Positions 1-12,077 of a stretch of DNA of 37,774 bases are shown here, piece after piece. Both the position numbers and the translations under genes were made by a program. The DNA is taken from assembly GCA_028710895.1 (NCBI GenBank), contig JAQTTH010000027.1, forward strand, positions 1 through 37,774. Direction: 5' to 3'. The notes beneath the pieces are model-generated. The model was not told the origin of the DNA and made no database searches. It was given only the letters and a program-made list of their open reading frames with translations. The stretch comes from Paludibacter sp. Its GTDB lineage: Bacteria; Bacteroidota; Bacteroidia; Bacteroidales; Paludibacteraceae. Numbering within the stretch: the first letter of the stretch is position 1; each line of letters begins with the position of its first letter.

Positions 1-126
1 GGTCGCTTTCTCCATAACTACTTTGTCTTCTCAACGATCGTTGAATCAAGCTCCTGCAACCGGGAATACGGTTCAACCGACGCTTCCTTGCTGGGTCTTT
101 CAGACCGCAGGAAGCATAAGTATTAG
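1..126 (+). other. Possible 3' end of an unidentified reading frame, or structured RNA
   Basis: Frame 1 is open from the window edge to a TAG at 124-126, giving 41 residues without a recognised motif. The same stretch also contains a nested hairpin: GCTTCCT (82-88) pairs with AGGAAGC (109-115), and inside it GGTCT (94-98) pairs with AGACC (102-106). It may be the tail of a gene or mobile element that begins outside the window, or a structured RNA end. I cannot identify it. Confidence 0.2.
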
Positions 127-140
127 GTGCAGTAATTTTT

Positions 141-1037
141 TTATGCATTAATTAATCGAATTGAAAGTCCACAGTTTGCATAAGCTTCACTGTAGACATC
201 TTTTATATTTGTTTCTTCTTTTGATAAATACATGTCTTGTAATTCAGTTGACTTTTCAATGAATCGAAGAGTATTTGCTTTAATGTCGACTCTTGTTCCA
301 AAATCAATTTTCTCAATGGTTTCAATCAGATTTTTGGTTCTGGTGTTCCTCCAATGTCTCGGCCAGTCTAATAAATTCATGTTAGTGTTAGACTTAGCCT
401 TTATGATTTCTTTATTTAGTTTTTTACAATTCTCATCTTCAACTTTTAAATAGTTGTCAAAAGTCAAGAAGAATCTTTTAGGAATAATTTGCTCTTCAAA
501 ACTTTTACAAAAAGTTGCACCTACAATATCTTGTATTTTCTCCAATTGTGTCGCTTCGACAATTGGTTTTCCAATGAATATATATTTGTCAAAGTCAAAA
601 TAGGCATTTCCACTACTTAATGCTCCTCTCAAAGGTAAATCTAGTTCAATTGAAGCACATATAATCTCATTACAAATATCTATAAATGGGTCACAAGGTT
701 TTGGAAATCCAATCCATTTAGCTGCGAAATGTACTTTTTCTATGCTTTCAATTTTTTTTGCAGGTTCCCAAGTTCTGTCAGCCCAAATTACAATAGAATC
801 GCTCCCATATATAATGTTCGTTTTGTAAAATACTCCAACATTGTCATCTAATGTTGCATATGAATTTTCCCCAAAACCAGTCGAAAGAATGTCTTTATAT
901 TTTTCGTTTATCGCAATAACAATTTCAGTGAGTTTTATGTACTTCTCTTTTATCTCAATTAGTCCTCCTTCTTTTGAGATTTTATTTGAAAACCCCAAAA
1001 TGTCTAAAAAGCAAACATTATAACCGTAGTTTATCAT
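141..1037 (-). CDS. Class III nucleotide cyclase-fold protein, lone gene
   Basis: A 298-residue soluble protein without signal peptide or membrane helix. Residues 8-180 show the layout of a class III adenylate/guanylate cyclase core: an aspartate in FLDILGF (D12), a second in GSDSIVIW (D80), the strand LRGALSSG (136-143) and IGKPIVEATQLEK (155-167) where cyclases carry the G-x-x-V-N-x-A-A-R segment. The two candidate metal aspartates are kept, but the Asn/Arg transition-state pair is not evident, so activity is uncertain. The C-terminal 120 residues are unassigned. It starts at an ATG and has its own likely promoter and a hairpin leader. It is AT-rich, unlike the M15 peptidase gene upstream. 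The family placement is recognition from motifs; the product nucleotide and role are unknown. Confidence 0.55.
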   Translation of the reverse strand: MINYGYNVCFLDILGFSNKISKEGGLIEIKEKYIKLTEIVIAINEKYKDILSTGFGENSYATLDDNVGVFYKTNIIYGSDSIVIWADRTWEPAKKIESIEKVHFAAKWIGFPKPCDPFIDICNEIICASIELDLPLRGALSSGNAYFDFDKYIFIGKPIVEATQLEKIQDIVGATFCKSFEEQIIPKRFFLTFDNYLKVEDENCKKLNKEIIKAKSNTNMNLLDWPRHWRNTRTKNLIETIEKIDFGTRVDIKANTLRFIEKSTELQDMYLSKEETNIKDVYSEAYANCGLSIRLINA

Positions 1038-1118
1038 CTTCGTCTATTTTTTTATTATTGCACTTAACAAGAATATATGCGCATCTACACATATATCCCT
1101 TATATAATTTATTATTTT

Positions 1119-1155
1119 ACAGCACATATCCTCCAACTATTGGAATATGTGCTGT
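1119..1155 (-). promoter_or_regulatory. Leader hairpin upstream of the cyclase-fold gene
   Basis: ACAGCACATAT (1119-1129) is perfectly complementary to ATATGTGCTGT (1145-1155), with an inner CCAA/TTGG pair (1133-1136 and 1140-1143). No run of T follows on the minus strand, so it is a weak terminator candidate for the peptidase gene. If the -7 box at 1173-1180 is used, this hairpin lies near the 5' end of the mRNA. It may alternatively be a palindromic dispersed repeat. Confidence 0.45.
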
Positions 1156-1172
1156 TGTGTTTTAACGACTTG

Positions 1173-1180
1173 CAAATATA
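1173..1180 (-). promoter_or_regulatory. Candidate -7 box for the cyclase-fold gene
   Basis: On the minus strand this reads TATATTTG, a full match to the Bacteroidota TAnnTTTG box. The upstream -33 TTTG is not well placed, since the nearest copies are too close or too far. The implied leader to the ATG at 1037 is about 130 nt. Confidence 0.35.
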
Positions 1181-1288
1181 CAAATACATTTCAAACAATT
1201 AACCTAATTGGCAAAATAATTTTATGTAAAGTAGTATTTTCTTTGAAAGCTAAGCGTACTCATACTCAGCGCCGTTATTCAATGGAAA

Positions 1289-1720
1289 TTAATAGGATTC
1301 ATATTTCTTCTTCCCTCCCACTACTTTCATTCTCAGTACCTGTTTTCGGTTATTGGCTTCGCGGAAGCTAACATGTACCCAGTCGGGTTGGTGGTTGTCG
1401 CCGCCTTCCCATATCAGTTGGTCAAAGGGTAAGTGTTGGCGTATAAGTTGGAAGATGGCCGCGTTGTCGGCAGCATCCAGGTCGGCAGCTTCGCCGGTGC
1501 AATGTTGTGAGTTGGTTGCGCCACCAATGGCGCTGTTTACTGCCGCCGAGCGGAAACCTGAGTTGACACAAATCTGATGTCCGTACATATTGCGCAGAGG
1601 TTGTAGTACGCTTGTAACAAGGGCCTGCAAACGGGCAATTTCTGCTTCAGTTGGCAGGTTTGGCAAGTGGGTATTTGTGATTGTCAGTTCTTGTAATGTG
1701 AAATTTTTAGATAGTTGCAT
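1289..1720 (-). CDS. Peptidase M15-type D-Ala-D-Ala carboxypeptidase / endolysin-like
   Basis: A 143-residue protein of the M15A zinc peptidase family, which cleaves peptidoglycan stem peptides. The zinc ligands are visible in order: H73 and D80 in SQHCTGEAAD, and H116 in WVHVS. The arginine-containing SGFRS loop (54-58) precedes them. There is no signal peptide, so it resembles short cytoplasmic or phage-endolysin-like members that need another route to the wall. The N-terminal LSKNFTLQELT is typical of the family. Base composition is more balanced than in the AT-rich genes on both sides, and it resembles the 211-aa and DUF6261 genes nearby. Those three may form one resident locus. Confidence 0.85.
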   Translation of the reverse strand: MQLSKNFTLQELTITNTHLPNLPTEAEIARLQALVTSVLQPLRNMYGHQICVNSGFRSAAVNSAIGGATNSQHCTGEAADLDAADNAAIFQLIRQHLPFDQLIWEGGDNHQPDWVHVSFREANNRKQVLRMKVVGGKKKYESY

Positions 1721-1756
1721 TTTATTTTTACGGTTGGGGATGAAATATTAATTGGA

Positions 1757-1888
1757 CGTGTAGGGACAGGTCGTGACCTGTCCACAAATAAATATCGATA
1801 CATGTAAATAGGATTGTCCATGCATCCATACACATATTATCCTGATTTGTATTCCGGACAATCGGACAGGTCGCGACCTGTCCCTACG
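1757..1888. repeat. Inverted pair of REP-like palindromes
   Basis: Two copies of a self-complementary motif containing GACAGGTCGYGACCTGTC lie at about 1757-1783 and 1864-1888 in opposite orientation. Both carry GTAGG on the outer side of the pair. Each copy can form its own hairpin and the two can pair with each other. The arrangement resembles bacterial REP doublets in an intergenic region. Confidence 0.75.
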
Positions 1889-1891
1889 CAA

Positions 1892-2527
1892 TCAAAATCC
1901 AAATATGGTATAATCCACCTTCATGTTTCCGGTGGCATCGGGTACGTTTTGCATGTCGCGTTTGCCGTAAGGGTAATGTTCCTGTCGGGTGAAGGAGGTG
2001 AGCAGCAAGCCCAGTTGTCGGTCGTGTGCATTCATGCAGAGTTTCAATATTGATTCTGCCACCAGCGTTGTAAGGGTGCTTACGGCAGCCGTTACCGGAC
2101 TGGCTGCACTTGCCAACAAGCCAATAGTACCTACCAGTTTGGTGAGGTTTTGCTCGGTGAGTATCTGTGATAGCAGGGTGGCATTGTCGATAGTCTGTTG
2201 ATTCGATTTTACGGCCAGCAGCATCCAGTTTACGCTTTCGGGTATAGTGTCCGCCACAAATACGTTGTAGCCCGTATCACCAAAGAATATCAGCTGATTA
2301 TCTTTCACCCGCTGTATTTCGGGCAGTACCCGCGAACTGACAACCCGGGCCACTGCCTGCGATACCAGTTCTCTTTTCTGAACAGTATCCGTTGTGCGGA
2401 AAAACTCGTTTATCATCGGGAAATCGGCTTCGCCCAGCGTAACGAAACTCATTAGTTGTACTTCGCTCATACCCAGCAAAGCTCCGTTGCTGTATATGCG
2501 CAGTTTGTTTAGTCGTAGGTAAAACAT
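1892..2527 (-). CDS. Uncharacterised 211-aa protein
   Basis: I do not recognise a named domain. The protein has no signal peptide. Residues about 145-170 are hydrophobic and small-residue rich (IGLLASAASPVTAAVSTL), which may be a buried helix or weak membrane segment. The C-terminal third (HYPYGKRDMQNVPDATGN) looks like a conserved signature. The N-terminal half reads like a beta-rich domain followed by helices. It lies 171 bases upstream of the M15 peptidase gene on the same strand, separated by REP-like palindromes, and shares that gene's base composition. A role linked to the peptidase and to the DUF6261 gene at 8.4 kb is only inferred from context. Confidence 0.6.
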   Translation of the reverse strand: MFYLRLNKLRIYSNGALLGMSEVQLMSFVTLGEADFPMINEFFRTTDTVQKRELVSQAVARVVSSRVLPEIQRVKDNQLIFFGDTGYNVFVADTIPESVNWMLLAVKSNQQTIDNATLLSQILTEQNLTKLVGTIGLLASAASPVTAAVSTLTTLVAESILKLCMNAHDRQLGLLLTSFTRQEHYPYGKRDMQNVPDATGNMKVDYTIFGF

Positions 2528-2570
2528 TTTTTAATTGAAAATGAAAAATGGATAATGGATAGCAGAAAAC

Positions 2571-2608
2571 AAATCGAGGTTTGACAACAATATAAATTAC
2601 CAAACCTC
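2571..2608 (-). terminator. Hairpin after the small zinc-ribbon gene
   Basis: GAGGTTTG (2576-2583) pairs with CAAACCTC (2601-2608) around a 17-nt loop. On the minus strand it is followed by GATTTGTTTTC. It sits just after the stop of the 43-aa gene, so it is a plausible terminator for the small-gene cluster. Confidence 0.4.
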
Positions 2609-2618
2609 TCTTTTAAAT

Positions 2619-2750
2619 TTACCTGAAGTTGGTGTGACCACATTTTGGACATGGTGGTAAGGTATCCGTAGTATCATCTAATGTGACCGACTGACCACAA
2701 TTAGTACAATAATAAGTTCCTTTACCCGGTTTTTGACCTGTGCTTGGCAT
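2619..2750 (-). CDS. 43-aa zinc-ribbon protein
   Basis: This short gene encodes 43 residues from an ATG at 2748-2750 to a TAA at 2619-2621. It has two CxxC knuckles, C15/C18 (YYCTNCG) and C34/C37 (PPCPKCG), spaced as in a rubredoxin-like zinc ribbon, with a basic glycine-rich start. It is expected to bind one zinc ion. Similar tiny zinc ribbons occur as stand-alone proteins of unknown function. It is the last of four small genes on this strand (2.6-4.0 kb) and is followed by a hairpin that may end transcription. The regular cysteine spacing is the main evidence that it is real. Confidence 0.7.
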   Translation of the reverse strand: MPSTGQKPGKGTYYCTNCGQSVTLDDTTDTLPPCPKCGHTNFR

Positions 2751-2816
2751 GTTATTGATTATTTAATGAATAAAACTCCTTCAACATAAGACATGGAGGA
2801 TTGTCTTTATATAAAG

Positions 2817-3257
2817 TTATAACCAAACCTTGACCCCACCATGATGAGAACAAGTACCTCTCCGACTCTGGCTAAAGCTATAGGTTCCATCCCAACACAG
2901 TGCAGTAGCTCCAGCAGGGGCAGAATTATAATGGGTTGGTGATTGAATTATTTTTCCGGCAGAGTTTTTATAATGTTTTACATGAGCGCCAGTACTAACA
3001 TAAGACGGTTTTGATTTAGTCAGGTGCTTTGAATATACATATCCCGTATGACCCTGATACGAAACAAGTATCCATTCACAATCGCAATCTTCAGCCATTG
3101 AAACTGCGGTTCCCTTAGGTATAACCGTAATGACATTTGACCACGAATTAGCATCTTCTCTTAGATTGAGCCTGACAGATGTGTATTTTACGCCACTCTG
3201 AGCAAAACCGGACAGAACAATTGATAATTGTAATAGTATAAATAAGAATCTTTTCAT
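2817..3257 (-). CDS. Secreted SH3b plus DUF3761 protein
   Basis: A 146-residue exported protein. Residues 1-20 are a signal peptide ending near GFAQ. Residues about 24-80 look like a bacterial SH3 domain (VRLNLREDANSWSNVITVIP, then WILVSYQGHTGYVYSKHL), a fold that often binds cell-wall peptides or metals. The C-terminus, with ATALCWDGTYSFSQSRRGTC then SHHGGVKVWL, matches the DUF3761 signature of paired cysteines and histidines. It probably acts in the periplasm or at the surface. It lies between the zinc-ribbon gene and the lipoprotein gene on the same strand, with gaps of 66 and 41 bases. Its target is unknown. Confidence 0.8.
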   Translation of the reverse strand: MKRFLFILLQLSIVLSGFAQSGVKYTSVRLNLREDANSWSNVITVIPKGTAVSMAEDCDCEWILVSYQGHTGYVYSKHLTKSKPSYVSTGAHVKHYKNSAGKIIQSPTHYNSAPAGATALCWDGTYSFSQSRRGTCSHHGGVKVWL

Positions 3258-3298
3258 GGTACTAATGCTGTTTTATTGGTTATTACATCTAAGTTTTT

Positions 3299-3757
3299 TT
3301 AATACTCAACCGTGCGATACTTTATTACTTCTTTGGTTTCGGTTATGGTGGGTGCATTTATACCCCAATCATCCACCTGAACATTGGTTTCAAAACTAAA
3401 GGGGTTTATCTCTTTTTCCTGCGATATCCTGGCTGATTCACCCGACTTTATGAATTTCTCAGTAGCGAATTCAACCGTATTACCTTGTGATGAAAGCGTG
3501 GCATGAAACTTAAAAACACCATCGTGTTCGCTTGTATTAGTCACATCGCAAAACACCTTTAGCCTCGGGTTTGTACCAAACAAAACTGCACCACCTTGCC
3601 TCTGATGATACATTTTATTTTCTGGCACATAATACGTCAGCGTTATTTGTGTTTTCTCAATTTCGGTATAAGGTTCTTGTCTTGTTCGTTTTGCGCAAGA
3701 TTGCAGAAAGACGAAAGAACTAACAAGTAAAAGTATCAGATAATGATTTGTATTCAT
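3299..3757 (-). CDS. Uncharacterised lipoprotein
   Basis: A protein of 152 residues when started at the ATG at 3755-3757, which places a signal sequence directly at the N-terminus with a lipobox (FLQSC, Cys 21). An upstream in-frame ATG at 3802 would overlap the preceding gene and add 15 residues before the signal, so I prefer the shorter form. The mature part is beta-rich (TQITLTYYVPE, FKFHATLSSQGNTVEFATEKF), resembling an immunoglobulin-like or transthyretin-like domain, but no family is certain. It follows the preceding small lipoprotein gene by 13 bases, which suggests cotranscription. Confidence 0.65.
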   Translation of the reverse strand: MNTNHYLILLLVSSFVFLQSCAKRTRQEPYTEIEKTQITLTYYVPENKMYHQRQGGAVLFGTNPRLKVFCDVTNTSEHDGVFKFHATLSSQGNTVEFATEKFIKSGESARISQEKEINPFSFETNVQVDDWGINAPTITETKEVIKYRTVEY

Positions 3758-3770
3758 ATTAATGCAATAA

Positions 3771-4001
3771 TTAGTTACAATTACAATAAGACCGATCAAC
3801 ATATGTCTTGTTGCTGTTACTATTTATGTAATAGCAACCTCCTTGGGGTCCAGCGTAAAGTTGGTGTCCATTATAGGTTCCACAGTTAGTTTGATAATTG
3901 CTCGTACCAACATCCTCATAAGTGGAGCAAGCTGTTAGCAACAATACAATAATTGAAATGTAGCTCCATAAAATCATTTTATATTTTCTTCTCATTTTCA
4001 T
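3771..4001 (-). CDS. Small lipoprotein with PBCV-type basic adaptor motif
   Basis: A protein of 76 residues from the ATG at 3999-4001. The frame extends upstream only to a TTG. A short basic start and a hydrophobic stretch lead to a lipobox (LLLTAC), so the protein is probably a lipoprotein. The mature part is short, with four cysteines. It contains GPQGGCYYINSNSNKTYVD, which resembles the PBCV-specific basic adaptor domain (usual form GPRGGKYYI-x-NG-x-KTYV), a small module seen in viral and bacterial proteins. The role is unknown. It is the first gene of the four-gene run at 2.6-4.0 kb. Confidence 0.65.
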   Translation of the reverse strand: MKMRRKYKMILWSYISIIVLLLTACSTYEDVGTSNYQTNCGTYNGHQLYAGPQGGCYYINSNSNKTYVDRSYCNCN

Positions 4002-4036
4002 CTTTGCTTCCAAGTCTATCAACTATACCAATGTGT

Positions 4037-4085
4037 TTTGTTCAAGTTTAACGAAGTATAATCCATCCCGCTGATGCGCATATTA
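4037..4085. repeat. Degenerate half of a dispersed palindromic element
   Basis: GTTCAAGTTTAACGAAG and the following TATAATCC resemble one end of the structured repeats at 35.3 and 36.9 kb (GTTCAAGTTTAGCGAAGC followed by GTAATCC on their minus strand). Only this half is recognisable. It lies directly after the cyclase gene, between it and the next small gene. Confidence 0.4.
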
Positions 4086-4094
4086 AACAAATCC

Positions 4095-4781
4095 TCAACC
4101 TCTCCAATTGACAAAATGATCATCAAACTTCAATAAGCTTTCCCAGTCAACAAATAATTCTCTATAAATAATATCTTGAATCATATTTTTCGTATCTTTT
4201 GGTAATAGTTTATTGGGTTCAGAAGCTGTTAGAAAGGACTTATATTCTTTTAGTATTTCTTCAAAATGATTGTAAGCTTCTTCCTGAATGTATATATTAG
4301 AGGTTGCGGAACGAACTGACATTATTCTTGCTAGCTGATCAATGGAAGAACCAAGAAAATCCTCATTAGCTCTTATTAACTTTTTTGTAACTCCATAACT
4401 AAATCCGCATCTAATTTCAAAAGGAAAAACTTCTTTCGGCTGCGTTAATTTTAGATTTAAAGAAATCTGATTGATAAGAATAACGCTCTCAATCAGAGGC
4501 CTTAAACTATCAGCTGCTAATAAAACAGCATCGCCCATTTCTTTAATAAGTCTAACTTGATTATTGGCTGAAATAACATTTTTGATTAATGTGAAAAATG
4601 TTTCACCTCTAACATAACCAAGTTTTGGTCCATTTAACAATCTGTAATTTGAGCTATTTACTAAATCAATCATGCACCACACTCTAGTGTCATCTGCCAA
4701 TACGGAATAATTTTTTAAAAAATTTTCTTGCATGCCTTCTATTGAGGCTTGTAACTTTGTAATAATAAAGTTTAATTTCAT
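4095..4781 (-). CDS. Class III nucleotide cyclase, possibly Pycsar-like
   Basis: A soluble protein of 228 residues with a recognisable class III cyclase domain. Visible elements in order are the first metal aspartate in CMIDLVNSS (D39), the substrate lysine and second aspartate in IKEMGDAVLL (K80, D84), the strand FEIRCGFSYG (121-130), and DFLGSSIDQLARI (141-153). In the last motif the usual transition-state Asn is replaced by D148 while R152 is kept. This makes catalysis plausible but with altered chemistry or substrate. Short, stand-alone cyclases of this type include the cytidylate and uridylate cyclases of Pycsar antiphage systems. That identity is inference: no adjacent Pycsar TM or TIR effector is seen. 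It starts 11 bases after the stop of the dGTPase-like gene, so the two are almost certainly one transcript. Confidence 0.7.
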   Translation of the reverse strand: MKLNFIITKLQASIEGMQENFLKNYSVLADDTRVWCMIDLVNSSNYRLLNGPKLGYVRGETFFTLIKNVISANNQVRLIKEMGDAVLLAADSLRPLIESVILINQISLNLKLTQPKEVFPFEIRCGFSYGVTKKLIRANEDFLGSSIDQLARIMSVRSATSNIYIQEEAYNHFEEILKEYKSFLTASEPNKLLPKDTKNMIQDIIYRELFVDWESLLKFDDHFVNWRG

Positions 4782-4792
4782 TTGTCTGTTGT

Positions 4793-6244
4793 TTAAAATG
4801 AATCCATTCCCACGAATGAAAATATTTCTTGATCGCTTAATTCAGAAAAAATATTTACGGTCGTTTGAATTCGATGAATATCGTTGTTCAATAATTCAGA
4901 GGCAACTTTTTTTTGTTCGTCATTCCACCCCTCAATGTTACCTTTGGTCTGTAGATATTTATTAAGGAACTCTCTATCTTTATAAATCAAATCTATACAA
5001 CCATCTGTAATAGTTGATAGCATTTTCTTTCTATGTAAAACTTTATTTTCATTGAAAACACGGTCTTGTAAGAATTTTTTGAAATGGCCTAAAATTTCTT
5101 TTCCTTCTTTGGATAATCCAATCGTGTAATCAGAGTCACCTTCTTTCAAAAGTATTTTACATTCTTTTCCATCTTTTCTATTTAAGATATTGCTAGAGTT
5201 GCTAATAAAATCATTGATAAAATATGAATATAGCTTTCCTGAATCTCCTTTAGACAATCCTTGCATTAATAATGTGGAATCATAGTTGTTTTGATCAAAT
5301 AAATCACGGAAAAGCCCTCGATTATTTGGATTCCCTAAAAGGATTGCAGTGTTTGAATCATTCAAATTCTCAATTACCCATGTAATATCATCAGCATACT
5401 GAACTACTAAAGATTCATATGATACATTGCTCCAATCTATTTTATGATATTCACTTGATGCTTTATGTATTTTCTGATTGTGTATAAATGAATCCTTGCC
5501 AAATGGTGCATTTAGAGAATGTCTCCAAACACCATACATTAATTCAGGTGAAAAAGAATTTCCTTGTGATTCGTTTGTATAAGGATTCATTGTCAGTAAC
5601 CAATATCCCTGTTTTCCACTTGTGTAGGCATCATCAACCTTTTGTCCAGTAGCATATGGAATATTTTCCAAAACCTCTGCTCTTACTTTGTCGCTCTTTA
5701 TGTTTCGTATCCAATGAGGATGATTTGGTAAATGTTTTTCATCAACAAATAAATTCTGAGATTTTGTGCTTTCATATGAATTTTCTCGTTTATCATACTC
5801 ATCAACTTTTTCTTTAATCCATTTAGATACTACATCTTTTGAAGCATGAATAAAAGGAAGTGCTCCTACTTTTGAGCCTAAAACAATTGCTTCTGCAAAA
5901 TCTTCATTCAATTTTAGTGCACGACAAATAGTTCTTGCAACCTGCATCATTCGCATTGTATGAGTAATGTAATTTCGAATAATCCTTTGACCTCCACCAT
6001 ACAGGATATGGTATCTTTCAGATTGCTTTCTAATTCCATTTGAATAAAGTATTCTGTCTCTTTGATGTTGAATGGGTGTTCTGTTATTTAATCTTAAATG
6101 CTCGACATCTTTTTTCCATATATCTGTATAGTATTTAAATAAATCACCTCCATCTACGAAAATATTGCTGTCAAAACTTTTCATAGCATAGGACCCAAGA
6201 TGTCCTTCAAGTTGATCAACTATATTTTTATAACTATCTGTCAT
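4793..6244 (-). CDS. dGTPase-like HD-fold protein with a degenerate HD motif
   Basis: A protein of 483 residues from the ATG at 6242-6244; the frame extends upstream only to a GTG. It follows the pattern of dNTP triphosphohydrolases: RDRILYSNGIRKQSERYHIL (62-81), then THTMRMMQVARTICRAL (94-110) with the first metal histidine H95, then LNEDFAEAIVLGSKVGALPF (112-131). In the family this last segment reads HD-x-G-x-P-P-F; here the HD pair is S124-K125. The late aspartate survives in YADDI (D285 or D286). Losing two of four metal ligands suggests a pseudoenzyme that may bind nucleotides without hydrolysing them. The region about 215-245 (YWLLTMNPYTNE to MYGVWRHSL) matches the family's substrate-lid area loosely. 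It is upstream of, and coupled to, the cyclase gene. Confidence 0.7.
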   Translation of the reverse strand: MTDSYKNIVDQLEGHLGSYAMKSFDSNIFVDGGDLFKYYTDIWKKDVEHLRLNNRTPIQHQRDRILYSNGIRKQSERYHILYGGGQRIIRNYITHTMRMMQVARTICRALKLNEDFAEAIVLGSKVGALPFIHASKDVVSKWIKEKVDEYDKRENSYESTKSQNLFVDEKHLPNHPHWIRNIKSDKVRAEVLENIPYATGQKVDDAYTSGKQGYWLLTMNPYTNESQGNSFSPELMYGVWRHSLNAPFGKDSFIHNQKIHKASSEYHKIDWSNVSYESLVVQYADDITWVIENLNDSNTAILLGNPNNRGLFRDLFDQNNYDSTLLMQGLSKGDSGKLYSYFINDFISNSSNILNRKDGKECKILLKEGDSDYTIGLSKEGKEILGHFKKFLQDRVFNENKVLHRKKMLSTITDGCIDLIYKDREFLNKYLQTKGNIEGWNDEQKKVASELLNNDIHRIQTTVNIFSELSDQEIFSFVGMDSF

Positions 6245-6381
6245 ATTGTTTATACTTAAATGTAAAATTAACAACACTCATAAAACTATGGTTCGGAAAC
6301 GTACCAGAACATATTGAATCAGATTAAAGACTAAACCGTACAAGTAGATTCACTCCAGCGAGTTTATAGTATTACATAGCA

Positions 6382-6684
6382 TTAGAGTGGGCATGTCCAA
6401 TACAATTTGTCACTTTTGTCAAGGTTGTTTGCCCAATTTAATGGTTGGAGGTTGTTTAAATCATCAGAACCACCATTTGCAACTGGATTAATATGATCAA
6501 TTTCCCAACCATGATCTGAACTTCTATTTCCATGTTCAGAGTATTTCATTACTTTACCACATTTATCCCATCTCCAAACTTCAGAAGAGTAATTTGGAAT
6601 AATCCTTCCTTTATTCCATACTAACTTTTTCATTGTTTCCGACCAGCTATTGCCATTACGATCAGTGTTGTGACGTCTTACCAT
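6382..6684 (-). CDS. Stand-alone HNH endonuclease
   Basis: A protein of 100 residues with an HNH nuclease core in its C-terminal half: WEIDHINPVANGGSDDLNNLQPLNWANNLDKSD (about 60-92, with breaks between motifs). The DH pair and the Asn of NLQPL are clear. The position that is often His in LQPLHW is Asn here, a frequent variant. A single CG-x-V motif (WDKCGKVM) stands where paired zinc cysteines are common. HNH proteins of this size act as nicking or double-strand DNases in phages, homing elements and defence islands. It lies 137 bases upstream of the dGTPase-like gene and 102 bases after the membrane-protein gene. No partner is obvious. Confidence 0.8.
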   Translation of the reverse strand: MVRRHNTDRNGNSWSETMKKLVWNKGRIIPNYSSEVWRWDKCGKVMKYSEHGNRSSDHGWEIDHINPVANGGSDDLNNLQPLNWANNLDKSDKLYWTCPL

Positions 6685-6786
6685 AATTCTTAGAATAATT
6701 AATTTATTTCAAAAAGATACTTTCTACACTACAGTCAGACTACGATTACTAGTGTTCGTAGAACCACGACAGCGAGTGAAATATTA

Positions 6787-7350
6787 CTACTTATCATCAG
6801 TTTTTGAAACTTTCTTGTTTATCAGATAATGTTGATATTGGCTATAATTGAATATGATTAATACCAAATCTTTGATCATAAATGTTACATATAACAATCC
6901 AAACATCAAAATGATGATTGTAAAAATATTTACACTCGAAATCAAAAACTCGTTTTCACATGTCAGATTTGCAACAATAGCATATTTTACAAGAAATGCA
7001 AAAATCAATAATAACATTTGCATTAACAATGAAATAGAGAACACCGTACTTATTTTTTGATAAAGTGTTATTTCTTTATCTTTTTGTTTCGCGATTATTG
7101 TTATATTACCAAATCCAATTAAAAGAGCATAACCACTCAAAACAAAACCAAGTAGATTGGGAATAATTGACAAAATCATATTATCAATTATTTCTAAAAG
7201 TTTAATGTCTGGTTCTTTTGAAATTAAACAAATAGGAATAACAATCAAAATACTTATTATTAACGGAAGGATACAACCATCTAATAATAATTTCCATTTA
7301 TATAGTTTAAGTAAGGCAGAGAAGCCAAACAAATTACTTTTGGAGCCCAT
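6787..7350 (-). CDS. Four-helix membrane protein paired with the DUF4747-like gene
   Basis: A protein of 187 residues with four predicted membrane helices at about 25-43, 61-82, 102-127 and 136-158, and short charged ends. The second helix carries NLLGFVLSGYALLIGFG, glycine-rich as in small channel or effector membrane proteins, but no named family is certain. Its start lies inside the preceding gene (17-base overlap), so translation is probably coupled and the two products may form a complex. In defence islands, small multi-helix proteins next to a soluble sensor often act as membrane-disrupting effectors. That role is inference here. It could also be an unrelated membrane protein. Confidence 0.6.
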   Translation of the reverse strand: MGSKSNLFGFSALLKLYKWKLLLDGCILPLIISILIVIPICLISKEPDIKLLEIIDNMILSIIPNLLGFVLSGYALLIGFGNITIIAKQKDKEITLYQKISTVFSISLLMQMLLLIFAFLVKYAIVANLTCENEFLISSVNIFTIIILMFGLLYVTFMIKDLVLIIFNYSQYQHYLINKKVSKTDDK

Positions 7351-8197
7351 TTCTAAAAATGCTCATTATTTTTTCGAAAACTGCAATATGTTCTTTACCT
7401 TCTTGCGTAGAAATTTGTTCATTTCTTGGATATTCTGTTGTTGAAACAACGACATTTTTTCCACGTTCTTTAATTGTAGCTTCTGCATACCCATTACTTT
7501 GCGAAAGCTTCAGCGCCGCGCTAAGGACTTTACTTTGTGACAAATTTATGCTTTCTTTGCTGAATGACTTTGCTTCTAAATGTAGATTTCTAACATGACC
7601 ATCTTTCAAATCATCATCTAAAAGTTTTTCAAAATCATCAGACAAGTCATTATTTGTGTAAGAAATATCAATATCTAATTTAGACAAACTGCCAGCACTC
7701 AAAATTCTTTCAATAACGTCTTCTCTTAACTCTCTAGTTACAAAGACTGTTTGAAATTTATCTGCAATTTTCTCAAGTGCATATTTCATAAAGATTTCAA
7801 CTTGTGATATTGCAATTCCATTTGATTTTATTGTAAAACAAAATCTATGTGCATCAGGAATAAAAAAATAATCGCCTTCTTTAGCATTCGGATTCAGCGA
7901 GCTATCAATTTCAACTTTCTGCATCGTTTTAGAATCTCTATTATACCAATCATTCGGATCTAAGACAGTATAGTACATCAGCTTTCCATATACAATTTTT
8001 TTATCTTCAGTTATATTCATGGAACGAAATTCCATATATTTCTCCCCTCTCGTATTACATGCTATGTCATTTTCGAATACTCTCTTTAAAATATCTGTGT
8101 AAAAGGCAGCCGAATCAATTTCTTCGTCCTTTGGTGCAACTTTTATATTTAATATTCCGATTTTAAAATCTTTCTCTCTACTTCTCTTATTTTTCAT
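7334..8197 (-). CDS. DUF4747-like protein
   Basis: A soluble protein of 287 residues. The N-terminus (FKIGILNIKVAP, then FYTDILKRVFENDIA), the middle (GKLMYYTVLDPNDWYN and EGDYFFIPDAHRFCFTI) and the later NGYAEATIKERGKNVVVSTT segment follow the pattern I associate with DUF4747. That is a bacterial family of about this length without known activity. The assignment rests on recall of the pattern. No nuclease or nucleotide-binding motif is visible. The gene overlaps the downstream membrane-protein gene by 17 bases. It begins 173 bases after the DUF6261 gene, at the edge of the AT-rich island. Confidence 0.5.
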   Translation of the reverse strand: MKNKRSREKDFKIGILNIKVAPKDEEIDSAAFYTDILKRVFENDIACNTRGEKYMEFRSMNITEDKKIVYGKLMYYTVLDPNDWYNRDSKTMQKVEIDSSLNPNAKEGDYFFIPDAHRFCFTIKSNGIAISQVEIFMKYALEKIADKFQTVFVTRELREDVIERILSAGSLSKLDIDISYTNNDLSDDFEKLLDDDLKDGHVRNLHLEAKSFSKESINLSQSKVLSAALKLSQSNGYAEATIKERGKNVVVSTTEYPRNEQISTQEGKEHIAVFEKIMSIFRNGLQK

Positions 8198-8324
8198 GTT
8201 GATTGTGTTTTATTATCATCTCCTGTTACTCATTTGCAATGTTCTCCCCGGTAATAGAAGGCCATCCTCCGGCATTTCCTTGGCCTGATTATCCAGTTTT
8301 TTTATAATGTTTTTTATTCACACA

Positions 8325-8363
8325 AAAACTCCCCTTCCTGAACCATTTAAATTCAGGAAGGGG
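8325..8363 (-). terminator. Intrinsic terminator of the DUF6261 gene
   Basis: CCCCTTCCTGAA (8331-8342) is perfectly complementary to TTCAGGAAGGGG (8352-8363) with a 9-nt loop. On the minus strand the stem is followed by AGTTTTTG. It lies 8 bases after the DUF6261 stop codon. Confidence 0.85.
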
Positions 8364-8370
8364 AAGAATT

Positions 8371-9120
8371 TTAGTTGTTTACAGTAGTAGTTGCAGTGGC
8401 TGCATTCTTTTTCGCATTCTCGGTGCGGGTGTCAGATGCTTTCACGGTTGCCAGCGAGGTGGTGATTAGCTCGTTGAGCGAAGCTATCAATGCCGTTACA
8501 CCGGCCGATGGGGCTGACACTTCCTGCAACGAAATAATCTGAAACAGCTGCTTTACAGAGTCAGTGAGTGGCTGACGGGTTTCGGTAACTGTAGGTTCGG
8601 TGCTGTTGTTTTCGGAGCGCACCACATTGGTATCAGCCTCCAGATAGTCTGCTTGTGCCTGCTCCAATTCCTCAAGCAGCTCGGTAGCGCCAATTAGTGC
8701 CACTTCTGCCGGATGCTTTGTTTTAAGCTCTGATATAAGTCCGTCCAACTGAGTGAGACGTGTTTTTTGTCCGAATCGTTGTAGGGTCCATCCGTATTTT
8801 CGTATAACATCAATAATTACAGTGGCAGCCTCGGCTACACCGGCTTTTTTACGGGTGGAAGCGGATTCGGCTTGCTTACGCAGCGCCATAAAGGCATCAA
8901 TCTGGTCGGTAGCTTTTTGTGTACGAATTTTTACGAGTGGATTTTTTGCTTCCCGGTCGAGGGCGTTTTTAAAGTCCTCCAATCGTGCTTTGGAAATACT
9001 AAGAAAAGGTTCTACAGCCGTTACGGTAGTTTTCTTTTCGTCAATGAGTATAACACTCTTTTTTGTAAAGCTATAAAGCTCTTCACTTGGAAACAATGCA
9101 AAATTTGTTGACTGAATCAT
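8371..9120 (-). CDS. DUF6261 family protein
   Basis: A protein of 249 residues, almost wholly helical, with no signal peptide or membrane helix. The order of features matches what I recall for DUF6261 of Bacteroidota: an N-terminal ALFPSEELYSFTKK, a central KYGWTLQRFGQKTRLTQLDGLI, and helical repeats ending in an Ala/Thr-rich tail. No function is known to me. Base composition is higher in GC than the island genes immediately downstream and similar to the M15 peptidase and 211-aa genes at 1.3-2.5 kb. The three may belong together. A strong terminator follows. Confidence 0.7.
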   Translation of the reverse strand: MIQSTNFALFPSEELYSFTKKSVILIDEKKTTVTAVEPFLSISKARLEDFKNALDREAKNPLVKIRTQKATDQIDAFMALRKQAESASTRKKAGVAEAATVIIDVIRKYGWTLQRFGQKTRLTQLDGLISELKTKHPAEVALIGATELLEELEQAQADYLEADTNVVRSENNSTEPTVTETRQPLTDSVKQLFQIISLQEVSAPSAGVTALIASLNELITTSLATVKASDTRTENAKKNAATATTTVNN

Positions 9121-9246
9121 AGTATTCTTTTTAATTTAGTGAGTAATTGTGAAAATTCAATTTATAATGATATTAAATATATCCGGTTACAGATAGAATA
9201 AGGGCTACAGATATATGTAGAACGGTTTTATTGGATTATGGTTAAA

Positions 9247-9420
9247 GTTTTAGTCTTATTTATTTTATTTTCGGGCCCTTGCAAAAAGTTTAAGCCTTAT
9301 TTATTTTATTTTTGGGGCTTTGCAAAAAGTTTGAGCCTTATTTATTTTATATTTGAGGCTTTGCAAAAAATGCTAGCCTTATTTATTTTATTTTTGAGGC
9401 TCTGCAAAAAATGATGGTCT
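9247..9420. repeat. 41-bp tandem repeat, four copies plus a fragment
   Basis: Units start at 9247, 9288, 9329 and 9370, exactly 41 bases apart, with a fragment from 9411. Each has an AT-rich core (CTTATTTATTTTATTTT) and ends in TGCAAAAA. In units 2-4 the core is flanked by short complementary arms, AAGCC/GGCTT or AGCCT/AGGCT, so each unit can form a small hairpin. The tract fills the 534-base gap between the DUF6261 and DUF3244 genes together with the inverted repeat at 9537-9645. Confidence 0.85.
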
Positions 9421-9536
9421 CAAAAATTCTTATTTTATTGATATTCCCAAAATTTTGGTCTTATTTTTTTTCGTTTTTCTTATCTCTTCATCGTTTGAGA
9501 ACGAGGAGTAATTTGTTTATGAATGATTCGGGTAAT

Positions 9537-9645
9537 AAAGCGGTACAGTCAATAAAAAATTTGCCTTTCGATTTTGAATGTTCAGGCTACGGAAACAAAT
9601 TTCTTACACTGTGTTCACTATTCACTACATTGACTGCACCGCTTT
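9537..9645. repeat. 17-bp inverted repeat enclosing 75 bases
   Basis: AAAGCGGTACAGTCAAT (9537-9553) and ATTGACTGCACCGCTTT (9629-9645) are complementary with one mismatch. The right arm ends 9 bases from the stop of the DUF3244 gene. It could be an extended transcript-end hairpin or the ends of a tiny non-autonomous element. Confidence 0.55.
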
Positions 9646-9654
9646 GATTAATTT

Positions 9655-10044
9655 TTAAAGAGCAAAACTACCCCGCTGGGTGGTTGTTCCATACGTAACT
9701 GTAATTGTGTATATCCCACTGTCCCATGTTCCAACCGGAATATCAAATTCCGGAGTTGAGTCTGTATCCACCGCTTCCTGATAAACAATCGTATTTGATT
9801 GGTCGTACACCGTGATTGTTGCATCGCCTACCGAATATTCGAAGTATATTGCCAAATCAGTATCGCTTATTGTAGCAGAGGCTGAAGGTTCAATACCTGG
9901 TCTGTTTGGTAAACCGGGACGAGGCGGTTCGTTATCGGGTGGCAACAGTATTGGCGTTGTATCACCCGCAAAACTCAATTGGGAACAAAAAATAAAGCCT
10001 GCCACCAGCAGGGCTTTTGAAAGCATCGATTTCGAAATTTTCAT
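9655..10044 (-). CDS. DUF3244 secreted protein
   Basis: A protein of 129 residues with a signal peptide (1-26, ending LSFAG), a proline-rich linker (about 30-52, LLPPDNEPPRPGLPNRPGIE) and a single small beta-sandwich (about 53-129). The sandwich contains DLAIYFEYSVGDATITVYDQ and SGIYTITVTY, as in the DUF3244 family of Bacteroidales. These proteins are probably periplasmic or surface-exposed, with unknown role. The gene is on the same strand as the TPR regulator gene, 431 bases downstream of it and beyond a terminator, a neighbour pairing I associate with this order. A short inverted repeat covers its start codon. Confidence 0.7.
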   Translation of the reverse strand: MKISKSMLSKALLVAGFIFCSQLSFAGDTTPILLPPDNEPPRPGLPNRPGIEPSASATISDTDLAIYFEYSVGDATITVYDQSNTIVYQEAVDTDSTPEFDIPVGTWDSGIYTITVTYGTTTQRGSFAL

Positions 10045-10078
10045 ACGTGAATAATTTGCTTACTCGCGCCGTATGAAA
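10039..10078 (-). promoter_or_regulatory. Inverted repeat spanning the DUF3244 start codon
   Basis: TTTCATACG (10039-10047) pairs with CGTATGAAA (10070-10078) across 22 bases. The start codon of the gene is inside one arm, so in a longer transcript the ATG would be held in a 9-bp stem. The remaining 10079-10408 stretch contains a palindrome TTCGATCGATCGAA near 10173 and no convincing gene. Confidence 0.35.
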
Positions 10079-10403
10079 TTCACCTAAAATTCTTTCATGT
10101 TCATGAACCATTTCCGATTCCTAAATTTACTCCATAGGCGCTTTCATTGTGAATTACTTTTTTTGAAAAATTTTCGATCGATCGAATTGCTAATTTATGG
10201 AGGGTTCGGGTTAATATCCAAATTTCGGATTGAAAAAGAGGGGGACATCTTAAAAAGAATCTGTACTGTAAATCAGAACTTTACATTTTAATTCGGGACA
10301 AATTGGGGGACATGGGTTTTTATTGCTGACGATTAACAGCAAAAATCCCTGTTTTGAGGCAAAACTTCGGGAGAAAAGCAGCAAAAACAGTATTGGTTGA
10401 AGA

Positions 10404-10438
10404 TGAAAAACGCCGACCGGTTGTATCCGGTCGGCGTT
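10404..10438 (-). terminator. Intrinsic terminator of the TPR regulator gene
   Basis: AACGCCGACCGG (10409-10420) is perfectly complementary to CCGGTCGGCGTT (10427-10438), with a 6-nt loop. On the minus strand the stem runs into TTTTTCATC. It is 38 bases past the stop of the TPR gene. Confidence 0.9.
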
Positions 10439-10475
10439 GGTAATAGTGAATGATCTGGCAGGTTTTGAGACTGTA

Positions 10476-12077
10476 TTATTCGGTTAGAATACTAAAAAGG
10501 AAAGTTTCCAACTCCCGCAGGGAATCAATGCCAAACTTGGTTTTGGCGAGTCGTTGTCGCATTTTCTTCAAAGCCTCCTGGCTATAATCGAGCAGCATCA
10601 TTATGTCCTGATTGGATATATTGAGCAGGTAGAGGCAGCACCATTGTATTTCTTTTTGGTTGAGTTGATAGCGGGTTTGAAGCTTTGTCACCATATTGTT
10701 GAGAACGGTATCCATCTCTTTGTAGAAAAATTCAATATCATTCAAGTGCAGCAATTCTTCGTACATCTTCCGGTCGATGCGCTCCCGTTCGGCCGGACTG
10801 GCTTTTTTCCACTCTTCGGTATGCGACGATTTGCGGTCTTCAATTTTACGCAACAAGGCATCGCGGTGTTTCAGCATCACTTCTTTGCGGATATCGGCCC
10901 GTTGAATCTGGCTGTTTTCCTCCGAAAGTTGTAATTCATGAAGACCCTTCCTGTGTTTGACTGCATATACCCTGACGGAAACAATAATGACTATCAGCAA
11001 AATAGCACCCATATACCACAGCCAGCTTTGTTTTTTCTCAACCTCCTGCCTGGTACTATGCATGGTTTCGATATAACTTCCCCTGGTTTGAGCGGCAATT
11101 TTTCTGACCGAATCTCCCAATCTGACATATTCATTCATATAAATAGTTACATCCTGAGTATGTCCGTTTGCAAATTCACAATTAGTCATCACCCGGTAAC
11201 ATTCTCTTCGGGTATTAATATCGGGAGTGTACTTCAGGGCATTACCGGCATAAGTAAAAGCTGAGTCGTACTGCTTTGAATCAAAGTAGATGTTGGAGAG
11301 ATACAAATAACGCAGGCTCTTATTATTTTTCACATACGGATAATTCAGAATCTTCCTGAAATAGTAATTGGCCGAATCGTATTTCTTAAAATCGTAGAAA
11401 TTGATTCCCATATCCTGGTACAACGAACCCTTTTCCAGTGAGTCTTTAGCCTGATTTAGTATGCGCTGATAATAGGACTGAGCTATTGTATACTCTTTGG
11501 CATAATGATAGGTTTCGCCGATTGACAATAAAGTATAAAATGCATAAAACTGAGATTTTGCTGTAGTAAAATAAGAATATGCAAGTTGAAATTTCTTTCG
11601 GGATAATACAAAGTCTTTTTGAATACTGTAAATTTCGCCCATATCGAGATTAATCCTACCCAGTAAAAGACTGTTTCCTGAGTTTTTTGCTTCGTCCAAC
11701 GCCTTTAAATAAAAGTTCATTGCTTGCTCGTACTGAAAGCTGTACTTATACAATCGTCCTTTGTAGAAATAACAGGAGGCGAGGCGGTTTTTATCCGGAT
11801 GTTCCTGATAATAGGCCAGTGCAAAATTCAGCAGCGAATCAGGTTGAAGTGGAAGGAGCTTCTTGTCGAGCGTCTGTATCATCAAAAGTCCGTACAAAGC
11901 CCTGTTTCCGTCCGATTTATATTTATCGGGCGACAGATGCTGCAGAATCTGCAGGACCGAGTCGGGTGCAGTTTCTATTAGTTGTTCGGCCCGTTTTAAT
12001 TCGTTGGGCATGAGGGAACAACCGGATAATACTATGCAGAGCAGGGCAAAAACCCGAAGATGTAAACTTTTAGACAT
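10476..12077 (-). CDS. Lipoprotein TPR regulator with membrane anchor and C-terminal HTH-like domain
   Basis: A protein of 533 residues. It begins with a lipoprotein signal (lipobox VLSGC, Cys 20), followed by tetratricopeptide repeats over about 60-310 (such as CYFYKGRLYKYSFQYEQAMN and SLYQDMGINFYDFKKYDSAN). A membrane helix at about 352-373 is followed by a charged coiled stretch and a C-terminal helical domain (YQLNQKEIQWCCLYLL, then DYSQEALKKMRQRL). That domain resembles the LuxR-like DNA-binding end of this Bacteroidota family. The design suggests outside sensing through the TPRs and regulation at the membrane. The paired lipobox and later helix would leave the repeats in the periplasm. 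Targets are unknown; the DUF3244 gene downstream is a candidate. Confidence 0.8.
   Translation of the reverse strand: MSKSLHLRVFALLCIVLSGCSLMPNELKRAEQLIETAPDSVLQILQHLSPDKYKSDGNRALYGLLMIQTLDKKLLPLQPDSLLNFALAYYQEHPDKNRLASCYFYKGRLYKYSFQYEQAMNFYLKALDEAKNSGNSLLLGRINLDMGEIYSIQKDFVLSRKKFQLAYSYFTTAKSQFYAFYTLLSIGETYHYAKEYTIAQSYYQRILNQAKDSLEKGSLYQDMGINFYDFKKYDSANYYFRKILNYPYVKNNKSLRYLYLSNIYFDSKQYDSAFTYAGNALKYTPDINTRRECYRVMTNCEFANGHTQDVTIYMNEYVRLGDSVRKIAAQTRGSYIETMHSTRQEVEKKQSWLWYMGAILLIVIIVSVRVYAVKHRKGLHELQLSEENSQIQRADIRKEVMLKHRDALLRKIEDRKSSHTEEWKKASPAERERIDRKMYEELLHLNDIEFFYKEMDTVLNNMVTKLQTRYQLNQKEIQWCCLYLLNISNQDIMMLLDYSQEALKKMRQRLAKTKFGIDSLRELETFLFSILTE

Follow-up and report, generated by a model that had tools for sequence, protein, structure and literature searches.

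A conserved gene pair encoding a lysine-substituted dGTPase-fold protein and a class III nucleotide cyclase, a possible mobile nucleotide switch

The locus

We analyzed a stretch of 37,774 nucleotides from Paludibacter sp. (contig JAQTTH010000027.1 of assembly GCA_028710895.1; hereafter "the window"), in which two neighboring genes encode a protein with the dGTPase fold and a stand-alone class III nucleotide cyclase:

4793..6244, minus strand: dGTPase-fold protein, 483 residues (homology, fold and residue comparison)
4782..4792, minus strand: gap of 11 bases between the two genes, which share the strand
4095..4781, minus strand: stand-alone class III nucleotide cyclase, 228 residues (profile, fold and residues)

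The dGTPase-like gene comes first and the cyclase gene lies downstream, which confirms the observation, made in an earlier note on this DNA, of a cyclase gene and a dGTPase-like gene 11 bases apart on one strand. An alternative GTG start at 6277 lengthens the dGTPase-like open reading frame (ORF) to 494 residues; the ATG at 6244 matches the first residue in many relatives. The GC content of the module is 31%, compared with 39% in window bases 10001-37774. A promoter scan gave only chance-level results, a terminator was looked for and none was found, and an Rfam scan of window bases 1-12000 returned no match.

Conservation of the pairing

A pattern-based scan with a dGTPase-like profile, using one genome per species, yielded six loci (L002-L007) from Psychroserpens, Rhodothermales, Cyclobacteriaceae, Humibacillus, an unclassified bacterium and Cellulomonas citrea, hosts that, going by their names, we take to span at least two phyla. 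When the loci were read with overlapping ORFs thinned to the longest, the cyclase gene was found directly downstream on the same strand in all six, as in the window (7/7), with intergenic gaps of 11, 13, 10, -4, 14 and 2 bases in L002-L007 and 11 in the window. The two families are thus adjacent at every locus read directly, which is the co-occurrence that the earlier note proposed to look for and the opposite of the rare neighborhood that, according to it, would speak against a coupled system. A third host group, with a name from Acidobacteriota, is provided by Pyrinomonadaceae, where a cyclase (P0031) and a dGTPase-like protein (P0071) share a 7086-base contig and carry the locus numbers 15445 and 15440. 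Undibacterium, and also further names from Acidobacteriota, have a dGTPase-like protein with no listed cyclase. By coordinates, L003, L009, L010 and L037 are one place (the same genome as G195 and G494), and L002 lies on the same 13015-base contig as the proteins P0024 and P0065.

Contig sizes extend this picture. Among the 56 cyclases collected (46 from the first search and 10 new), 47 are represented by a contig of 2300 bases or more, and at least 27 of these match the size of the contig of a listed dGTPase-like protein; this is a lower bound because 120 of the 148 dGTPase-like relatives found are listed. The 20 unmatched contigs include at least one true pair (77216 bases, L007). Distances of the two proteins correlate with r 0.96 over 32 pairs, and none of 2000 permutations reached this value (best 0.49); such a correlation is expected for linked genes.

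No third recurring gene was detected by blastp (E 1e-4) among 342 ORFs of at least 60 residues within 5 kb of the pair at the seven loci, where contig ends shorten some of the flanks (about 0.5 kb downstream in L003, 1.6 kb upstream in L004, none downstream in L005). Two short cross-matches among flanking ORFs turned out to be antisense ORFs inside the dGTPase-like gene. Chance pairing is ruled out by the recurrence at all seven loci, by the 27 of 47 contigs and by the lack of any other recurring gene.

The altered active site of the dGTPase-fold protein

The partner of the cyclase matches dGTPase models in both PADLOC and NCBIfam as well as PDB 2dqb, with most of the matching sequence at residues 50-145, and in fold comparison the dGTPase match covers residues 2-482 (336/483 aligned). 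A Pfam scan of the protein revealed no transmembrane (TM), TIR, nuclease or cyclic-nucleotide-binding domain. The alignment with 2dqb places LSHDLGHPPFGHTGE opposite LGSKVGALPFIHASK. The HD pair corresponds to S124-K125 and the Glu of the catalytic dyad to K136, with H95, H133, D285 and D286 retained. In terms of the four dGTPase metal ligands (H...HD...D), the first His and the last Asp are present and the HD pair is gone.

Analysis of the 120 listed relatives reveals that this is a fixed state of the family. Position 124 is Ser in 62, Ala in 46, Thr in six, Cys in five and Val in one, and never His; both the position of the HD Asp and that of the catalytic Glu are occupied by Lys (K125 and K136) in 120/120. 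H95 is kept in all 117 relatives that cover it and H133 in 118/120 (Tyr in the other two), and D285, D286, W289, E292 and N293 are each found in 120/120. The claim of the earlier note that the partner is a degenerate dGTPase homolog whose metal site is partly lost is therefore borne out as a conserved condition.

According to the portion of the Clover paper available to us (PMC12265719), the dGTPase CloA uses the metal ligands H69, H117, D118 and D242 and the dyad H126 and E129, and its residues D243 and Y246 contact dGTP. A mapping made from motifs equates the four ligands with H95, S124, K125 and D285, the dyad with H133 and K136, and the dGTP contacts with D286 and W289. With these pocket residues kept and the HD pair and the catalytic Glu replaced by two lysines, the nucleotide pocket is conserved, and HD-type metal hydrolysis of deoxynucleoside triphosphates (dNTPs) is predicted to be lost; that is, hydrolysis by the known mechanism should no longer occur.

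The genome of the window also has an ordinary dGTPase-type gene (L015; G000 contig C33, 206395-207714), which matches the PADLOC dGTPase model with E 6.6e-76; three in-frame stops were counted in the matching stretch.

A divergent class III cyclase with an intact metal site

As a single sequence the cyclase retrieved only chance-level rows from Pfam, NCBIfam, PADLOC, PHROG and the PDB sequence models, and it was recognized by profile and by fold comparison as a class III cyclase homology domain, preceded only by a short N-terminal helix (residues 3-25). The metal-binding D39 and D84 and the substrate Lys K80 are present in 56/56 cyclases, and D141 (substrate choice), D148 and R152 (transition state) in all 55 that cover each position; the six residues are invariant in an alignment that includes L003-L007. 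In the alignment with Rv1264, K80, D84, D141, D148 and R152 stand opposite K, D, D, N and R. Thus, the description in the earlier note of a cyclase that retains both metal aspartates and the substrate Lys and has Asp at position 148 holds for the family as a whole, and the loss of metal aspartates across the family, which it named as evidence against a coupled system, is the reverse of what we found.

In class III cyclases the Asn at the position of D148 is a transition-state residue, and its replacement by Asp is a family-wide trait here. The Lys-Asp combination is the adenine-type substrate pair of class III cyclases, and the title of PDB 5d0g refers to a KDA-to-EGY mutant of Ma1120. Because K80 and D141 form such an adenine-type pair, the cyclase is predicted to be of the ATP type and not a pyrimidine cyclase.

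Elsewhere in the window, a 298-residue protein (141-1037, minus strand) with the motifs LDILGFS, SDSIVIW and RGALSSG looks by eye like a divergent class III cyclase domain; it had no convincing match in Pfam, PADLOC, NCBIfam or the PDB.

Comparison with known systems

Two described defense systems resemble the pair. Clover, as presented in the part of its paper that we could draw on (PMC12265719), likewise comprises two genes, with a dGTPase fold (CloA) next to a nucleotide-making enzyme (CloB), and allosteric sites on the dGTPase fold serve there to read dNTPs. However, CloA retains the HD and HE motifs and hydrolyses dGTP, whereas both motifs are gone here (120/120 listed relatives), and CloB is a Pol-beta nucleotidyltransferase, whereas the partner here has the class III cyclase fold. 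A Pfam scan of ten window genes detected no nucleotidyltransferase domain, and the word "cyclase" is absent from the Clover text as far as it was accessible.

Pycsar systems (PycC with PycTM or PycTIR), again going by the accessible text (PMC11224242), likewise combine one partner gene with a stand-alone class III cyclase that retains both metal aspartates; the partner there is a TM or TIR receptor, in contrast to the dGTPase fold found here with no third recurring gene. As residues tied to the choice of a pyrimidine, the same source gives F100, R142 and Q144, with metal D102 and D146, for PycC of clade E, and F60, K104 and F109, with D62 and D106, for clade D. By a rough offset from the metal aspartates, the window cyclase has M37, K80 and M82 at the clade E positions and M37, M82 and L87 at those of clade D, which is no match in either case; this mapping took in clades D and E of PycC, not A-C. 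Some relatives carry Phe at position 37. The comparison with pyrimidine cyclases drawn in the earlier note is weakened by this mismatch, as mapped by offset, one of the positions carrying an ATP-type Lys. The cyclase had no match at E <= 1 in PADLOC, which we take to include a Pycsar cyclase model. No Pycsar chain occurs among the fold matches listed, and we draw nothing from that absence. Judged by its sequences, the pair fails the defining features tested of both Pycsar and Clover.

The closest comparisons for the individual proteins are enzymes. The dNTPase of T. thermophilus (2dqb), SpdGTPase (9p8w) and the E. coli dGTPase share the fold, and the positions of H95, H133, D285 and D286 are kept; they differ in that here other residues stand for the HD pair and the catalytic Glu, two of these three positions always holding Lys (120/120 listed). 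The mycobacterial class III adenylyl cyclases (Rv1264, 1y10/1y11, and Ma1120) share the fold of the cyclase, and the second metal Asp, the substrate Lys and Asp and the transition-state Arg align, whereas the present family has Asp for the transition-state Asn, only a short N-terminal helix and a gene tie to a pseudo-dGTPase. Searches of the open-access literature aimed at such a pair, covering titles and the beginnings of abstracts with few subscription papers (10.1093/nar/gkad879, credited with the first dNTPase-NTase pair, falling outside them), turned up no description of a class III cyclase paired with a dGTPase homolog.

Distribution and genomic neighborhood

The module is rare. In samples of the phylum of the window the cyclase was found in 2/395 genomes and the dGTPase-like gene in 2/380, the two genomes being the same in both cases (that of the window and one carrying the place of L003), so that each gene, wherever it turned up in these samples, was accompanied by the other. 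Among 100 genomes searched around that of the window, only its own has the module. For the phylum of L007, the dGTPase-like gene was detected in 1/386 genomes, the seed; the cyclase profile matches 9/396 at E 1e-6, of which the score assigns the seed alone to the family. The other eight genomes (11 matches, at most 36 bits) were rejected; the 3.2-3.4 kb around each match contained no dGTPase-like gene, and the few sequences printed for these weak matches resemble ordinary cyclases by eye. In the phylum of L006 the count is 1/286, again the seed. Each of the five genomes of L003-L007 has a single cyclase that belongs to the family. Viral contigs yielded no confirmed relative of the cyclase or of its partner, plasmids gave no cyclase match, and a search of phage records for the pair gave only partial matches (at most 32% of the query). 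The plasmid matches to the dGTPase-like protein are N-terminal, cover at most 20% of the query and were taken as ordinary dGTPases.

The surroundings of the pair are variable. In 11 same-genus loci beside yqeY (9.9-13.6 kb; yqeY was matched in 32 other genomes of the genus, of which 11 were used, L046 with 735 bases having been dropped), the 14 other window genes tested were all absent, with the exception of one TPR gene in one locus; the region is therefore variable. It occupies window bases 1-12077, next to the dcw cluster, between yqeY and the start of the window.

Two overlapping genes (6787-8197) are located beyond an HNH gene, some 0.5 kb upstream of the pair:

6382..6684, minus strand: HNH endonuclease domain protein, 100 residues (Pfam HNH, E 7e-7), between the pair and the membrane protein
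6787..7350, minus strand: membrane protein, RexB-like partner, 187 residues (hydropathy; PHROG 20580, E 6.4e-7)
7334..8197, minus strand: DUF4747 protein, RexA-like (Pfam DUF4747, E 5.4e-36)

The 187-residue protein is strongly hydrophobic at 18-49, 99-132 and 133-168 and more weakly at 54-87, consistent with about four helices. Relatives of the two overlapping genes adjoin on a Hymenobacter plasmid. RexAB, Sbash, CarolAnn and Butters have each been described as combining DUF4747 with a membrane protein of four helices, and in phages Butters and CarolAnn a weak DUF4747 match and a four-helix membrane protein have been likened to RexAB exclusion, in those parts of the papers that were available; PMC12894663, which deals with the RexAB system of P. 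putida, makes no mention of DUF4747 in its available part. In PADLOC the membrane protein had nothing better than E 0.91 and the DUF4747 protein no match, and tblastn with the latter against 50,697 phage records found none. From Pfam and the published descriptions, we regard 6787-8197 as a putative RexAB-like exclusion pair.

At L002 an AAA-15/21 ATPase and DUF4276 pair (4306-6100), which matches the PADLOC candidate system HEC-01 (HEC-01A/B), adjoins the module, and L005 has a PDC-M05A-like gene near the pair (PADLOC). Other neighbors chosen for PADLOC scoring gave weak or no matches. The defense-like neighbors in three loci (in the window by Pfam and the literature, in L002 and L005 by PADLOC) are no more than suggestive. 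The locus of L007 holds a TrwC relaxase.

Proposed mechanism and alternatives

The conserved pairing, the predicted folds, the fixed pseudo-active site, the intact metal site of the cyclase and the patchy, AT-rich, variable location form the established basis for any interpretation. The reading that we favor, tentatively, is that of a hydrolysis-dead sensor of (deoxy)nucleoside triphosphates that gates an ATP-type class III cyclase within a mobile module. The pair would act as a mobile two-protein nucleotide switch, presumably co-transcribed. The dGTPase-fold protein would bind a (deoxy)nucleoside triphosphate in the old substrate pocket without hydrolyzing it, and binding or loss of the ligand (e.g. 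after a phage has altered the dNTP pool) would alter the shape of the protein. This change would switch the cyclase on, which would then produce a cyclic nucleotide and/or consume ATP, and the cell would cease to support the phage. Only the neighborhood, the patchiness and the low GC content point to a role of the module in defense, probably against phages. It is also possible, and we say so with some reserve, that the two genes form an immune switch not described before: a dNTP hydrolase that lysines fixed at metal and catalytic positions have made a pure sensor of the dNTP pool (or a decoy for phage dGTPase inhibitors) would gate the ATP-type class III cyclase as the output, a dead-enzyme counterpart of Clover with no separate effector.

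The two genes, the live-looking class III cyclase, the conserved ligand pocket and the lack of a third recurring gene would also suit the order of events known from Pycsar. Here the cyclase would be the first to respond to infection, and its cyclic nucleotide would be the signal; the dGTPase-fold protein would serve as both receptor and effector, binding this nucleotide in the altered pocket and acting other than by dNTP hydrolysis. We consider this unlikely, as the partner has none of the TM, TIR, nuclease or cyclic-nucleotide-binding Pfam domains, its dGTPase match spans residues 2-482, and a receptor without an output activity is hard to see as an effector. The retained fold with catalysis predicted lost could alternatively make the protein a bait to which phage-encoded dGTPase inhibitors, for example Gp1.2 of T7, would bind and thereby free the cyclase; PDB titles 7u65-7u67 record a solved structure of a phage protein on a dGTPase (T7 Gp1.2 on the E. 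coli dGTPase). The pocket is over-conserved for a surface bait, with K125, K136, W289, E292 and N293 in all 120 listed relatives, and such a decoy or guard role seems highly improbable. The invariant lysines, together with His95, His133, Asp285 and Asp286, resemble an active site under selection and might be taken to perform a new, metal-light nucleotide chemistry, perhaps on the product of the cyclase. Structural or phosphate-binding roles of the lysines are equally likely, we know of no HD-fold enzyme with this set of residues, and we give this changed-enzyme possibility very little credence. Ordinary accessory signaling, by a regulator of the cyclic AMP type that reads the nucleotide pool from a mobile region and has no role against phages, would fit the lack of direct defense evidence and the strong PADLOC neighbors at only 2/7 loci among the genes chosen; it appears distinctly unlikely in the light of the rarity, the patchiness, the low GC content, the variable site and the defense-like neighbors in three loci.

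Several observations weigh against a sensor-gated cyclase in defense, all support for which comes from sequence, fold and context. In a large branch of dGTPase-like proteins that are 40-50% identical to that of the window (P0076-P0157, on contigs of up to 645 kb), only 4/82 lie on a contig of the size of that of a found cyclase, a count that depends on cyclase searches limited by shared words; these may be unpaired or differently paired forms, with divergent cyclases or other partners. The nearest neighbor agrees between the two sets of distances in only 15/32 cases. H95 is Gln in L006 (one of nine sequences of a separate alignment), and the retained metal ligands are hence not universal either. 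With D148 in place of Asn, the cyclase may be slow or yield another product. As to the context, the strong PADLOC neighbors (L002 and L005) come from chosen genes and carry no background rate, the genes of the window near the pair have no strong PADLOC match, and the RexAB-like interpretation of its neighbors derives from Pfam and papers, with no match in phage records.

Viruses are held back by dNTPases in animals as well as in bacteria, and antiviral alarms travel as nucleotide signals; the union of both folds in one conserved module with a dead hydrolase would show that the sensing of nucleotide pools is separable from the destruction of nucleotides. The pair adds a family of class III cyclases that went unrecognized by the models of Pfam, NCBIfam, PADLOC and PHROG in these scans, and the invariant Lys125 and Lys136 of its partner provide a sharp, quickly testable prediction.
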